From NCBI GenBank assembly GCA_903900335.1, contig CAIUMP010000019.1, positions 1-64,000 of the forward strand: a stretch of DNA of 64,000 nucleotides, in the 5' to 3' direction. The DNA comes from an uncultured Ignavibacteriota bacterium. GTDB taxonomy: Bacteria; Bacteroidota; Ignavibacteria; Palsa-1295. The stretch's first letter is position 1. Every line of letters starts with the position of its first letter. The position numbers and the translations under genes are program-made. This document shows, piece after piece, positions 12,782 through 60,076 of this stretch. A model generated the notes under the pieces. It saw only the letters and a program-made list of their open reading frames with translations, had not been told where the DNA came from and searched no databases.

Positions 12782-14155
12782 ATGAAAGATAAGATTCGCA
12801 TTGCTTCCGGTCAGGGGTTTTGGGGTGATTTGCCGAATGCGCCGATCGATCAGGTTCGTCGGGCGTCGAAGGAATCGCCGTTGGATTATATGATGATGGA
12901 TTACCTCGCGGAGGTGACGATGTCCATCATGCAGAAGCAGAAGCTGCGCGATCCGAAAGCCGGGTATGCCCGCGATCTGGTCGAGGTCATCGATGCGATG
13001 TTGCCGGATCTGGTCTCGAAGAATATTCGGGTCATCACCAATGGTGGCGGGGTTAATCCCGAGGGTTGCCGCGATGCGATTTTCGAGGTGGCGCGTCGGC
13101 GTGGGATTCCGATCAAGATCGGTGTGGTGCTCGGTGATAATATCTTGGATGGCATTGATCCGTTGCTTGAGGCGGGACATCAGCTCAAGAACATGGAGAC
13201 GGGCGAGCCACTGACCACTGTTCGGAATAAGGTGCTCTCGGCGAATGTCTATTTCGGTGCGTGGCCGATCGTTGAGGCATTGCGGCAGGGTGCGCAGATC
13301 GTTATCACGGGCCGCACAACTGATACTGGATTGACTCTTGCGCCGATGATCCATGAGTTCGGCTGGACTGCCGATGATTGGGATAAGATGGCGGCGGGTA
13401 CGGTTGCGGGGCATATCCTGGAGTGCGGGGCGCAGTCCTCGGGCGGTAACTTCTCGGCTGATTGGAAGTCGGTGAAAGATTTCGCGCATATTGGTTTCCC
13501 GATTGCCGAGGCATATCCGAATGGGGATTTCGTCATTACCAAGCATCCGAAGACGGGTGGACGCGTTTCGCGGGCGTCCGTTGCGGAGCAGTTGCTGTAT
13601 GAGATCGGTGATCCGAGAGAGTACATTACACCAGATTGCGTCGCGGATTTTACGTCAATCAAGCTGGAGGATTTGGGTAAGGACCGCGTGCGAGTTAGCG
13701 ACATCAAGGGCCGCCCCGCGACGGATTTCTACAAGGTTTCGATGTCCTACAACGATGGCTTCTCCGCGTTCGGGACAATCACCTACACATGGCCGGACAC
13801 CATGGAGAAGGCGCAACTTGCAGATAAGATACTCCGATCACGTTTGAAGGATGCGGGCTGTGTGTATGATGAGATGCGGACCGAGTATCTCGGTGTCAAT
13901 TCCTGCCATGGGCCGCTAACGAAGGTTAACTTCAATGATGTGCAGGAGGTTGTTGTCCGATGGGGTGTGCGTGGCAAGGATAAGAAGTCGATCGAGCGTT
14001 TTGGTAAGGAGATCGCGCCGTTGTTGCTCACTGGGCCGCCGAGCGTGACTGGTGTTGCTGGTGGTCGTCCGAAGCCGAGTGAGGTCGTAGCGTATTGGCC
14101 AGCTTTGCTCGATAAGCGAGCGGTGACACCGAGAGTAATCGTGTCTGAACCTTGA
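12782..14155 (+). CDS. AtuA/DUF1446 family protein
   Basis: 457 residues. The family start KIRIASGQGFWGD, the NGGGVNPEGCRDAI segment, the GRTTDTGLTLAPM motif, and HILECGAQSSGGNF are all present. AtuA was named from acyclic terpene utilisation in Pseudomonas, but the wide family has no firmly assigned reaction. Members in many phyla sit near acyl-CoA carboxylase or enoyl-CoA hydratase genes; none lies next to this one. The last four codons and the stop fall inside the left arm of a 19-bp inverted repeat (14142-14160), so the present C-terminus may have been shaped by that element. It has no Shine-Dalgarno sequence. Confidence 0.85.
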   Translation: MKDKIRIASGQGFWGDLPNAPIDQVRRASKESPLDYMMMDYLAEVTMSIMQKQKLRDPKAGYARDLVEVIDAMLPDLVSKNIRVITNGGGVNPEGCRDAIFEVARRRGIPIKIGVVLGDNILDGIDPLLEAGHQLKNMETGEPLTTVRNKVLSANVYFGAWPIVEALRQGAQIVITGRTTDTGLTLAPMIHEFGWTADDWDKMAAGTVAGHILECGAQSSGGNFSADWKSVKDFAHIGFPIAEAYPNGDFVITKHPKTGGRVSRASVAEQLLYEIGDPREYITPDCVADFTSIKLEDLGKDRVRVSDIKGRPATDFYKVSMSYNDGFSAFGTITYTWPDTMEKAQLADKILRSRLKDAGCVYDEMRTEYLGVNSCHGPLTKVNFNDVQEVVVRWGVRGKDKKSIERFGKEIAPLLLTGPPSVTGVAGGRPKPSEVVAYWPALLDKRAVTPRVIVSEP

Positions 14156-14255
14156 TTTTACGAGAAGAGGAAGATTTTTGAGATATTGAATTCTATCGGT
14201 ACTCGAAATCCCAATCTATCAATCTGTTTAATCCCCTAAAATCAAGGTTCAGACA
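14142..14255. repeat. 19-bp perfect inverted repeat element, copy 2 of GTCYGAAC family
   Basis: The left arm TGTCTGAACCTTGATTTTA (14142-14160) is the exact reverse complement of the right arm at 14237-14255, with 76 bases between. The left arm encodes the last residues and stop of the AtuA-like gene, and the right arm ends three bases before the sua5 start. The interior contains GATTTTTGAGAT and AATCCCAATCTATCAATC phrases that recur in the gap at 8249-8427. It looks like a small non-coding repeat of the MITE/REP kind; no transposase is nearby. Confidence 0.7.
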
Positions 14256-14258
14256 ATA

Positions 14259-15212
14259 ATGCTTGCGGAGATCGGGAAGGACATATCGAAGGCGAGAGAA
14301 CTGCTCCAGCGGGGATTGGCTGTTGCGATTCCAACCGAGACGGTGTATGGCCTCGCTGCGAATGCACTCGATCCGAATGCCGTGTTGCAGATCTTCGAGA
14401 TCAAGAACCGCCCGCAGTTCGATCCACTCATCGTGCATGGCGCTTCGCGGGAGCGGTTGTCGAATTATGTGACCGCGTTTCCGGATTGGGCGGTGAAGTT
14501 AGCGGATGCGCTCTGGCCAGGGCCGCTGACACTAGTGCTTCCGAAGGCGAAGAGTATTCCTGATCTGGTTACTTCGGGAATGGATACGGTTGCGATCAGA
14601 GTACCGAATCATCCTATGACTCTGGACTTGTTATCGCAGCTTGATTTTCCGCTGGCTGCACCAAGTGCAAATCCGTTTGGGTATGTAAGCCCAACATCAG
14701 CCAAACATGTGATGATGCAGCTTGGGGAGAAGATACCGTATATCCTTGATGGTGGGGAGTGTGCGGTCGGGGTGGAATCGACGATTGTTGGGGAGGTGGA
14801 AGGACGTGTTATCGTGCTGCGGTTGGGCGGGGTTTCCGTGGAGGAGGTTGAGGCATTGATCGGCAAGGTGGAGGTTCTAACGGAGTCGTTGCCTAATGCG
14901 GTGATACCGGGGTCGCTGACAAGTCATTACGCGCCCAGAACACCCCTTGTCGTTGGGCCGATAGAATTCGATAAGTACAAGCGATCGCTGATCGGAGCAC
15001 TGAGATTTTCAGTCGAGAGCGAGAAGCTGCACCCAAGTCAGCAGGTGGTGCTTTCGCGTGCGGGGGACCTGCGCGAAGCGGCGAAGAATCTCTTCGCCGC
15101 GATGAGGCAACTGGACCGCCAAGGAGCGAAGGTAATCTTCGCGGAGGAATTTCCTGAGGAGGGTTTGGGCCGGGCGATCAATGATCGTCTTCGAAGGGCC
15201 GCTACCCAGTAA
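14259..15212 (+). CDS. sua5: Threonylcarbamoyl-AMP synthase, Sua5 type
   Basis: 317 residues. The YrdC fold is clear: ALAVAIPTETVYGLAAN-like start (VAIPTETVYGLAANAL), FEIKNRPQFDPLIVH, then WPGPLTLVLPK and LAAPSANPFGYVSPTSA. A linker (IPGSLTSHYAPRTPL) joins a C-terminal Sua5 domain of about 110 residues, which makes it Sua5 rather than the short TsaC form. It makes L-threonylcarbamoyladenylate from Thr, bicarbonate and ATP for t6A37 of ANN-decoding tRNAs. It abuts the convergent M48 protease gene with no gap. Confidence 0.95.
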   Translation: MLAEIGKDISKARELLQRGLAVAIPTETVYGLAANALDPNAVLQIFEIKNRPQFDPLIVHGASRERLSNYVTAFPDWAVKLADALWPGPLTLVLPKAKSIPDLVTSGMDTVAIRVPNHPMTLDLLSQLDFPLAAPSANPFGYVSPTSAKHVMMQLGEKIPYILDGGECAVGVESTIVGEVEGRVIVLRLGGVSVEEVEALIGKVEVLTESLPNAVIPGSLTSHYAPRTPLVVGPIEFDKYKRSLIGALRFSVESEKLHPSQQVVLSRAGDLREAAKNLFAAMRQLDRQGAKVIFAEEFPEEGLGRAINDRLRRAATQ

Positions 15213-57734: not shown

Positions 57735-59036
57735 ATGTACAATCCCTTTGAAGTAGAACGTCCGATTTTGCCGAAGTTCACGTTTCTAACAGCGATTGCC
57801 CTCTGTGGCGTTCTTGCTTTCGCTGTGCCCTCTGGTAACGCCAAGCGGCACCCGAAACGCTCATCCGTTAAACCCGCGAAGAAAACCCAGCAAATCCGCT
57901 CGACACAAAACCAGCTTGAGAAGGTAAAGGCAGAGATCGTGCAGTATCAATCCGAACTGCGCAAACATGAAAAACTCGAAGCGAAATCGAAGAAGAATAT
58001 TCACGCCTTCGAAAAACGAACGGCCCAGTTACGTGCCACGATAGATCGTTTGGAAGCCGAAGTCGAAGAACTCACTTCCGAGAAAGCGGAGGTGGATGAA
58101 TCACTTCATCAAACGGCGAACACGCTTGATGCTCTGAAAAACGCGTACGCGAAAAGCAGTCGCTATCTCTACACGCACGGCGCGCTCGCCCCTCAAAATT
58201 CCGACATCTATCTCTTTGCCCCCGAGCAGCAAGAGATGAGCACCCGAATGAGCTATTACACCCAAACCATCGGCGAAGCGCACGCGATGAACCGCACACG
58301 CCTCGATTCGATGAAGCGGACGCTCGGTGCTTCAAGTCTCGAACTTCAACATTCCCTTACTGCGGAGGAACAGCGCATCGGTCAATCAGCGCAACAGGCA
58401 ACGACGCTCGAAGAGAAGAAACGCGAGGAGGCCAAGCAACTTGCGCAAATTCAGATCAAGAAGGATCGGCTCAAGCAATTACTCAAGGAGCGAACGGCGA
58501 GCGCGAAGAAATTGGAAGGTATCATTGCGAACCTCGTTGCAAGTGAAGAGAAGGCAAAGCGGGCTGAGACTCGCAACAAGACGAACAAACGTCATCGCAA
58601 GAACGAACCTGAACTGGCGAACGACGCCGCAACTGGGAGAGCTTACGGCCCGCACTCGTTACAGTGGCCTTCTTCAAGTCACCATGTTGTGCAAGGGTTC
58701 GGCGAGCATCGCAATGCAGAGATCGGGACCGTCACGATGAACTTGGGGATTGACATCTCATCGCCGCAAGGCTCTTCGGTTGTCGCGTCCGCCGAAGGAG
58801 AGGTCTCACTTGTCGCTTCGTTGCCGAGCTATGGCACGATTGTCGTGCTCAAACATTCGGGTGGATTGCATACGGTCTATGCGGATCTCAGTGGTGCAAG
58901 TGTGAAGAAGGGCACCCATATCCGCACCGGACAGCAAGTAGGGAGGAGCGGCACGAACGAGGAGAACGGCGCGGTGCTGCATTTCGAGGTGTGGAAGGGG
59001 AAGTCGAAGCAAAATCCTATGGGGTGGCTGAGGTGA
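57735..59036 (+). CDS. EnvC-like murein hydrolase activator with degenerate LytM domain
   Basis: 433 residues. A signal-like start (FLTAIALCGVLAFAVPSGNA) is followed by a long coiled coil (residues ~50-290) with Lys/Glu/Gln heptads, and then a C-terminal LytM/M23 domain from about 310. Zinc-site residues are only partly kept. The usual H-x-G-x-D reads NLGIDI, so His is replaced by Asn, and the usual H-x-H reads VLH. This matches the non-enzymatic EnvC type, which activates amidases during septum splitting, although no amidase is near. A heptamer repeat begins at its stop codon. Confidence 0.85.
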   Translation: MYNPFEVERPILPKFTFLTAIALCGVLAFAVPSGNAKRHPKRSSVKPAKKTQQIRSTQNQLEKVKAEIVQYQSELRKHEKLEAKSKKNIHAFEKRTAQLRATIDRLEAEVEELTSEKAEVDESLHQTANTLDALKNAYAKSSRYLYTHGALAPQNSDIYLFAPEQQEMSTRMSYYTQTIGEAHAMNRTRLDSMKRTLGASSLELQHSLTAEEQRIGQSAQQATTLEEKKREEAKQLAQIQIKKDRLKQLLKERTASAKKLEGIIANLVASEEKAKRAETRNKTNKRHRKNEPELANDAATGRAYGPHSLQWPSSSHHVVQGFGEHRNAEIGTVTMNLGIDISSPQGSSVVASAEGEVSLVASLPSYGTIVVLKHSGGLHTVYADLSGASVKKGTHIRTGQQVGRSGTNEENGAVLHFEVWKGKSKQNPMGWLR

Positions 59037-59061
59037 AAGATGAGAAATGAAAGATGAAAGA
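59034..59061. repeat. TGAAAGA heptamer repeat at the EnvC-like stop
   Basis: Four tandem heptamers: TGAAAGA, TGAGAAA, TGAAAGA, TGAAAGA. The first includes the TGA stop of the EnvC-like gene. A dRS3-like element begins 20 bases later. Confidence 0.7.
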
Positions 59062-59080
59062 TGAATGGAACAGCAGGGAT

Positions 59081-59143
59081 GTCATTCCCGCGAAAGCGGG
59101 AATCCAGGTCCGCGGGATGGATTCCCGCTTTCGCGGGAATGAC
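59081..59143. repeat. 26-bp perfect inverted repeat element (dRS3-like)
   Basis: Arms at 59081-59106 and 59118-59143 are exact reverse complements, with an 11-base spacer. Each arm contains ATTCCC-N8-GGGAAT, itself a palindrome with a GCGAAAGC core, the layout of neisserial dRS3 elements and similar dispersed repeats. It lies within the reading frame of the VWA gene, and the ATG at 59117-59119, at the end of the spacer and the right arm's first two bases, is its best start. A similar but smaller palindrome lies at 39775-39800. Confidence 0.8.
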
Positions 59144-60076
59144 AATTCAGGGTTTTGTGAATTCCGAATAAATACCCACAGTGTATTCACATTCCTCCTT
59201 ATCTTCACACTTCAGATTTTATCCTTCACAATTCCCACCCACGCCCAAGAGATCAGCATATCCCTAACTGACTCTCATTGCGGTCTCCTTCGAACCGACA
59301 GCGCAAATTGGAGCGAGGCGTGGATCGAACTCGATGGCGCACCACCGCTATCGAAGAAATTGACGACCAGCGATGTGCATGTGACGATGGGAAAGCAAGC
59401 CGCCAAGATTCTGAGCATTGACTCTGTTGGTGCGACGTTCAAATCTCGCCTCGCCCTCAGTTTCGTTCTGGATAACTCTGGCTCCATGTTTCATGCGTAT
59501 GATTCGCTCACTCGGATGTGTGATACCATTGTGGATTCCCTTACACCCGGCGCGCTCGGGCAGGCGGTTACTTTCGACAACACGCCGAGAAGCGAATCGC
59601 ATCTCTACACGCGCCGTTCATCGGTCTTCATTGCACAAAGTGGATTTCGCGACAGCATCCGTGCCGTGAAAACATTCTGGCATTTCTTCGATACCATTCG
59701 CACCGGCTACACGCCGCTCTACGATGCGATCGCTGCTGCAGTTGGAAATATTTCCAGCCGGCGAATGAATGGAGATACAGCACGAGCAGATGTGGTGATC
59801 GTCGTGACTGATGGCGAGGACAACGCAAGCCGAACTGACATCGAAACGCTGAGCGAACTGCTCAAGGCCACCCATGTTCGACTCTTCGCAATCAGCTTCC
59901 GAAGCGACGTTGATAAGCGCTTGCAATGGATCGCTCGTCATTCCTCCGGCGAGTATTATCTTGCGTATGACATCCCCGATCTCACTGATCTACTGCATCA
60001 AATGCGACGCCGAATATCGCAGCAGTATCACGTTCGTTATCAGTTCAATTCTCCGGGTCCAAGCTCTAGTCATTAG
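59117..60076 (+). CDS. VWA-domain secreted protein with repeat-derived 5' end
   Basis: 319 residues if started at ATG 59117, which belongs to the inverted repeat at 59081-59143. The frame is open back to ATG 59054, through the repeat. No ATG, GTG or TTG exists between 59120 and the signal-like segment (VFTFLLIFTLQILSFTIPTHAQ), so the repeat supplies the start. The von Willebrand A domain follows with the MIDAS residues DNSGSMFHA, a TPLYDA loop Thr, and VTDGED. These bind a divalent metal and usually a protein ligand. It is likely exported by the Sec system. The 52-base gap to acs holds no clear promoter. Confidence 0.8.
   Translation: MDSRFRGNDNSGFCEFRINTHSVFTFLLIFTLQILSFTIPTHAQEISISLTDSHCGLLRTDSANWSEAWIELDGAPPLSKKLTTSDVHVTMGKQAAKILSIDSVGATFKSRLALSFVLDNSGSMFHAYDSLTRMCDTIVDSLTPGALGQAVTFDNTPRSESHLYTRRSSVFIAQSGFRDSIRAVKTFWHFFDTIRTGYTPLYDAIAAAVGNISSRRMNGDTARADVVIVVTDGEDNASRTDIETLSELLKATHVRLFAISFRSDVDKRLQWIARHSSGEYYLAYDIPDLTDLLHQMRRRISQQYHVRYQFNSPGPSSSH

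Follow-up and report, generated by a model that had tools for sequence, protein, structure and literature searches.

REPs of the CGTC-1 family have an 8-bp stem that begins with AT, a 4-nt loop, a CGTC or TGTC header and a CCA tail, and they are found mostly as head-to-head dimers (Di Nocera et al. 2013, PMC3733652). Among the members of this family are Neisseria dRS3 and R. conorii RPE-6; intragenic copies exist, there is no link to RAYT transposases, and REPs at the N-terminal end of a gene often fall outside the true gene owing to downstream starts (PMC3733652). Rickettsia palindromic elements (RPE), of which the REP-type RPE-6 belongs to this same family, are in-frame coding insertions of 20-30 residues. 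Heptanucleotide repeats (STRR, TAACTGA) of Cyanobacteria, Beggiatoaceae and Bacteroidetes consist of 7-bp units that are intergenic and often near start codons; TAACTGA arrays are direct repeats, with one inverted case (PMC4679880). The stem of rRNA intervening sequences (IVS) is cut by RNase III. In these sequences, an S23 ORF is found in a stem loop, and their mobility has been proposed but not shown (PMC4990558).

The M23-VWA gene pair

The window (the whole stretch of DNA that was analyzed, 64,000 nucleotides; G000:C19:1-64000) is part of a 4.0-Mb draft genome in 62 contigs, G000. We compared G000 with its congeners G001-G006, a set that holds a single genome per species, with protein identity of ~60%, and in which a same-species empty site is absent. 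The features at the junction of interest are as follows.

57735-59036, plus strand: M23 peptidase with a coiled coil, the upstream gene (ORF; Pfam PF01551, E 6e-24)
59034-59068, plus strand: left heptad array, TGAAAGA TGAGAAA TGAAAGA TGAAAGA TGAATGG (from the sequence)
59054-60076, plus strand: VWA-domain secreted protein, 340 aa counted from ATG 59054 (ORF; Pfam PF00092)
59054-59056, plus strand: most likely VWA start ATG, within the heptad array, ahead of the REP dimer (sole in-frame start upstream of the repeat; opening energy; congener position)
59080-59144, no strand: CGTC-1-type REP dimer, 65 bp, head-to-head (arms 59080-59106 and 59118-59144, spacer 59107-59117)
59117-59119, plus strand: in-frame ATG in the REP dimer spacer/arm, judged an unlikely start (opening energy)
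59180-59245, plus strand: signal-peptide core and end (SVFTFLLIFTLQILSFTIPTHA), with predicted cleavage before Gln at 59246 (hydropathy; congener comparison)
59204-59238, plus strand: probable decayed right heptad arm, TTCACAC TTCAGAT TTTATCC TTCACAA TTCCCAC (lag-7 window p = 0.025)

The M23-VWA gene order is common to the seven species of the genus (G000-G006), and orthologues of the VWA protein are found in six congeners at 55-62% identity. The VWA domain occupies residues 136-313 (Pfam PF00092, E 7e-14) and is read in the same frame as the repeat, which bears out the preliminary description in placing that repeat inside the open frame of a VWA protein. The hydropathy maximum of the VWA leader is SVFTFLLIFTL, at residue 43, and the mature Gln start is kept in all congeners. 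Elsewhere in the window (14129-14268) there is a further inverted repeat with a 19-nt perfect core, TGTCTGAACCTTGATTTTA, and 48-nt arms at 73%, possibly another dispersed element.

A CGTC-1-type REP dimer in the open frame

We found that the arms of the dimer are 27 bp long, perfectly complementary and 11 nt apart, with REP palindromes at 59084-59103 and 59121-59140. The inverted repeat with ATTCCC-N8-GGGAAT units that had been reported here is thus present, but its size needs correction, from 26 bp at 59081-59143 to 27-bp arms at 59080-59144. Each arm is built on the palindrome ATTCCCGC-NNNN-GCGGGAAT. The ATTCCC-N8-GGGAAT pattern occurs 48 times in the 4.0-Mb genome, as opposed to 0 times for a reversed-pattern control, and the junction RNA folds with z = -5.5 (0 of 200 shuffles equally stable); the repeat is therefore not a chance occurrence, and its proposed dispersal is confirmed. 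The 48 palindromes fall in about 30 places, and 17 of the 31 groups consist of two perfect units each and so form dimers, the units being spaced 37-40 or 51-58 bp apart, with TGTC...GACA ends and inner CCA...TGG; two groups at the contig ends of C38 and C54 have 141 bp in common and could be a single copy. A stricter form of the palindrome is present in 6 of 6 congeners searched, at 2 to 95 sites each, and absent from 6 of 6 genomes searched outside the genus.

By its sequence, the window repeat fits the CGTC-1 REP family. The stem and loop read ATTCCCGC-GAAA-GCGGGAAT, the order TGTC-stem-CCA is found here and in most copies, and the copies are dispersed mainly as head-to-head dimers. As in the described CGTC-1 REPs, dRS3 and RPE-6, they are mostly intergenic and some are in-frame. 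The likeness to dRS3 noted earlier holds at the level of the family, which contains dRS3 (PMC3733652); dRS3 is the Neisseria form, and we do not claim that the element is dRS3 itself. The host lineage is another one, and the window copy sits inside a second repeat.

Only three or four of the G000 copies touch coding sequence, most being intergenic, and in this they differ from RPE. In a 977-aa FG-GAP protein (C36; L046:92-3025), a REP dimer is read in-frame (...VIPANAGIHPPDLDSRIRGNDN...) around residues 540-561, and orthologues from G001, G004, G005 and G006 align to about residue 529 and resume at about 573-576, with 6-12 nt between the pieces. In a glycosyltransferase (C2; L032:988-2280), about 50 extra residues around an in-frame REP dimer are absent in six congeners. 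For these two genes, then, there are RPE-like in-frame insertions with orthologues that lack the insert. A family-9-like glycosyltransferase terminates ...VIPAKAGI-stop within a REP dimer. With REP coding sequence in three G000 genes, this genome can therefore accommodate the element within its reading frames. This REP is absent from the VWA gene of every congener (one genome per species).

An interrupted Y1_Tnp (RAYT-like) gene (L052, G000:C54; L048, G000:C38) lies ~430 bp from a REP dimer on a shared contig end (141 bp). Among four good Y1_Tnp loci, one is near a REP dimer, with the gene interrupted and on a 3-kb contig, and the other three lack such a REP over about 1.5 kb. We considered a RAYT-driven REPIN and set it aside as weak, a single interrupted gene beside a single dimer.

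Two candidate start codons

Only two usable starts precede the signal core in the VWA frame, ATG 59054 and ATG 59117. A frame scan agrees with the preliminary description that no in-frame ATG, GTG or TTG lies between the repeat and the hydrophobic segment; the conclusion drawn there, that the apparent ATG is necessarily repeat-derived, overlooked the in-frame ATG at 59054, which precedes the repeat by 26 nt and follows the M23 stop by 17 nt. The RNA between -15 and +14 takes 10.1 kcal/mol to open at 59054 and 34.4 kcal/mol at 59117. The 43 other long-ORF starts in the window cost 0.7-17.9 kcal/mol (median 8.5), so that ATG 59117, which sits at the apex of a 27-bp perfect hairpin, is about twice as costly to open as the worst of them. 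When VWA homologues are aligned, the congener starts are directly behind the M23 stop, at the position equivalent to 59054. Taken together, these data suggest that translation probably starts at 59054, and that the REP most likely adds an N-terminal insert and neither supplies nor destroys the start. The earlier alternative, in which the insertion destroyed the original start, becomes unnecessary because an ATG is present at the equivalent position. What survives of the earlier claim, in modified form, is that the likely start at 59054 is itself within a repeat, a different one, the heptad array. A homologue with the same upstream residues and no REP, which would speak against a REP-derived start, is found in part: G001, without the REP, begins MMKDEQRR and G000 begins MKDEWNSR, though heptads alone can give MKDE.

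A start at 59054 leaves an unusually long n-region of 42 residues before the core. There is no Shine-Dalgarno motif at 59054, which means little because such motifs are not enriched before starts in the window (3 of 43 long ORFs, as compared to 9% at random internal sites) and the window shows no general use of them. Coupling of 59054 to the M23 stop by reinitiation is plausible.

We considered three other readings. If the REP dimer supplied the start, ATG 59117, which is in frame and inside the repeat, would give a shorter n-region (MDSRFRGNDNSGFCEFRINTHS-core) with 21 residues before the core, nearer to normal; the cost of opening its hairpin, the in-frame ATG upstream and the congener starts just behind the M23 stop make this quite improbable. 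A start downstream of the REP, with the dimer as a leader hairpin, would have to use a rare codon, for example ATA 59168 (INTHSVFTFLLIFTLQILSFTIPTHA). This would yield a signal peptide of normal length, and the published warning on N-terminal REPs (PMC3733652) supports a downstream start. Downstream of the REP, however, there is no ATG, GTG or TTG, and G003 likewise lacks downstream starts, except for a TTG within its own REP. AUA starts are very rare, and we regard this reading as unlikely.

The gene could also be decaying in G000, its start no longer used and repeats accumulating without counter-selection, as the long, odd n-region and two successive insertions might indicate. Against this, the frame is open for 340 codons, the VWA domain is intact with orthologues that are 55-62% identical, and the end of the signal peptide before the mature Q start is conserved; we consider decay very improbable. 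The start at 59054 remains our preferred reading, and it cautions against annotating the nearest ATG as a start when that ATG lies in a REP.

Heptad arrays at the junction

Tandem 7-bp units like those of STRR repeats fill 59034-59068, and the M23 stop TGA is the first triplet of this left array. Lag-7 identity over 59034-59079 is 0.62 (p = 0.006) and is the best among lags 3-11. On the other side of the REP dimer, 59145-59245 matches (TCTTTCA)n with a score of 17, where shuffles average 8.7 and 0 of 300 are as good; pairing of this right segment with the left array is not significant in G000 (p = 0.077). From periodicity and the consensus match, we infer that the right segment in G000 descends from a heptad arm.

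The distance from the M23 stop to the first mature Gln codon is 69 nt in G004, 77 in G005, 108 in G002, 120 in G001, 148 in G006, 202 in G003 and 212 in G000. In the plain junctions of G004 and G005, the M23 stop is followed by MKYRPFGFALIALTLACGASA or MRKDKTLAVFFFIACCLLFGTRSFA and then the mature Q. The five expanded junctions of the seven species (108-212 nt) all open with 7-bp repeats, and lag 7 is the best of lags 3-11 in the left part of each. In G001 and G002 there are inverted downstream arms (31-nt arms 97% complementary and 24-nt arms 100% complementary, respectively), and these reverse-complement arms encode the hydrophobic core (IFILHHSTFII; LLVTHHSLLVT). The G003 junction holds an in-frame insertion of another REP family (GTCATTCTGAGCGAAGC; GTCATTCTGAGCGNAGC), which has 60 matches in that genome when one mismatch is allowed, at G003:C29:16011-16027; two different REP families have therefore hit the same place in two species. 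Tree support is modest, 74 for G000 with G001 and G002 and 83 for G003 with G006, and is compatible either with a single early gain of heptads and loss in G005 or with several gains.

The period of 7 is coprime to 3, and a perfect heptad array therefore reads alike in every frame. Computed for TGAAAGA, the array gives stop-K-M-K-D-E-R in any frame and its complement gives SFIFHLS, which is stop-free and mostly apolar. A stop-free right arm is not universal: AATTATG, AGTCCTA, AGTGCTA and TACGAAT, among others, give stops. The arrays share with STRR/TAACTGA repeats (PMC4679880) the 7-bp units, the intergenic position and the frequent nearness to start codons; they differ in being mostly inverted pairs, in entering coding sequence and in being tied to S23/IVP genes.

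Heptad arms at other genes of G000

GAGTAAC heptads are common in G000 (48 + 58 overlapping matches, as compared to 0 in the control) and are often found as inverted arms at gene junctions, most of which have a usable ATG, GTG or TTG after the right arm. Two genes are clear exceptions. In a NosL lipoprotein (PF05573; L137), MSNMQKPTWQATRAVRNSILPTRYSLPVTRYLLLVTRFSLLITLLSC, the start is in the left heptad arm and the signal core comes from the right arm; the G001 orthologue (L138) likewise starts in heptads (MSNERAALHKTFRAMGIRLLITSSLLLAAFVMGC) and the G004 orthologue is plain (MNARIFSGILLLILCC). An ABC permease (L127) also has its start in the left arm and its TM core from the right arm, MSNESILAGGTRWRKVARYSLLVT-LALIMLGPFLWM; its congeners begin MKLIRYLLLGLAG- and MGRPAIRASKSLHYIALLVV-, and the G004 orthologue is again plain. 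The intergenic stretch C61:68937-69142 holds a heptad hairpin with a REP dimer in its loop, so that the two repeats are stacked as in the window. The loops at the VWA, NosL and permease genes resemble native n-regions, which would favour arms formed or inserted around native sequence over loops that move together with their arms.

Heptad arms around S23/IVP genes

TGAAAGA heptads occur at just two sites in G000, one being the M23-VWA junction; at the other, C4:110915-111205, they lie on either side of a decayed PF05635 (23S_rRNA_IVP, four-helix bundle) gene. GAGTAAC arms also flank a PF05635 gene, at C61:125164-125661 (L105). S23/IVP loci with inverted 7-bp arrays, and S23 loci from other phyla, are listed here.

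G000:C4:110834-111277 (L119): S23/IVP locus with inverted 7-bp arrays
G000:C61:125164-125661 (L105): S23/IVP locus with inverted 7-bp arrays
G000:C39:26067-26369 (L114): S23/IVP locus with inverted 7-bp arrays
G001-G004, G013 and G014: further S23/IVP loci with inverted 7-bp arrays
L140, L141 and L145: S23 loci on Nostoc and Calothrix plasmids
L147: S23 locus of Gemmatirosa

We surveyed all PF05635 genes in seven genomes; 24 of the genes were above cut-off. Matched flanks reach an inverted-repeat score of 15 or more at 18 of the 24, as compared to 4.2% of cross-genome flank pairs and 0 of 300 background windows. Stretches of 28 nt in which lag-7 identity is 0.8 or higher occur at 16 of the 24, as compared to 2 of 300 background windows. 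Other lags are rare at these flanks (none at 5, 6 or 9; three at lag 8), and the arm unit varies between loci, each with its own. The weak PF05635 matches below cut-off are mostly without arms of this kind; a strong inverted repeat is seen at 1 of 6, and it does not show the 7-bp period. Several heptad-flanked S23/IVP loci adjoin tRNA genes. S23 relatives on plasmids of Nostoc, Calothrix, Stanieria, Riemerella and Gemmatirosa have tandem-repeat flanks, with a period of 8 bp in Gemmatirosa; the inverted repeats are strong in N. edaphicum, Nostoc sp. ATCC 53789 and C. brevissima and weaker in the rest.

The heptad-armed PF05635 loci share with the Coxiella IVS (PMC4990558) an inverted-repeat stem and an S23/IVP four-helix-bundle ORF in the loop. 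They differ from 23S rRNA IVS in that the loci examined are at protein-gene or tRNA junctions and the arms are heptad arrays. The window copy is not a 23S IVS, which lies in 23S rRNA with an S23 ORF in its loop: it sits between protein genes and has no S23 ORF. In a literature search that covered only a minority of subscription journals, we found no published link between S23 or its four-helix bundle and heptad arrays, which does not prove absence.

Discussion

We think it likely that the junction was enlarged by two kinds of repeat, a heptad-armed palindrome and then a REP dimer, with the start at 59054 and the hairpin read as coding sequence. In this history, the heptad-armed palindrome would have taken over the M23-VWA junction first, its left arm after the M23 stop supplying the ATG and its right arm becoming part of the code for the signal peptide. 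Since a perfect array reads alike in all frames, such an element could provide stop, start and hydrophobic stretch whatever the frame. The CGTC-1-type REP dimer would have been inserted later between start and core; stop-free in this frame, it would add ~22 residues to the n-region. Translation would then begin at 59054 in open, purine-rich RNA, 17 nt past the M23 stop, and the REP hairpin would be translated. The start used, the order of the insertions and the mode of mobility are inferred.

A broader possibility, which we offer tentatively and hold to be less probable than the history of the junction itself, is that inverted heptad arrays and S23/IVP genes together form a widespread family of IVS-like mobile hairpins outside rRNA. 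Relatives without an ORF, at operon junctions, would act as frame-independent stop/start/hydrophobic cassettes in place of native signal peptides (VWA, NosL, permease), with REP dimers nesting inside them.

The observations bring two unsolved subjects together. One is the bacterial heptanucleotide repeats, for which decades have yielded no mechanism; the other is the S23 protein encoded in rRNA intervening sequences, whose part in mobility is so far a guess. They also suggest how non-coding repeats can become export signals: on the right strand, a 7-bp array encodes one mostly apolar heptapeptide whichever frame is read, and the starts lie in the partner arm.
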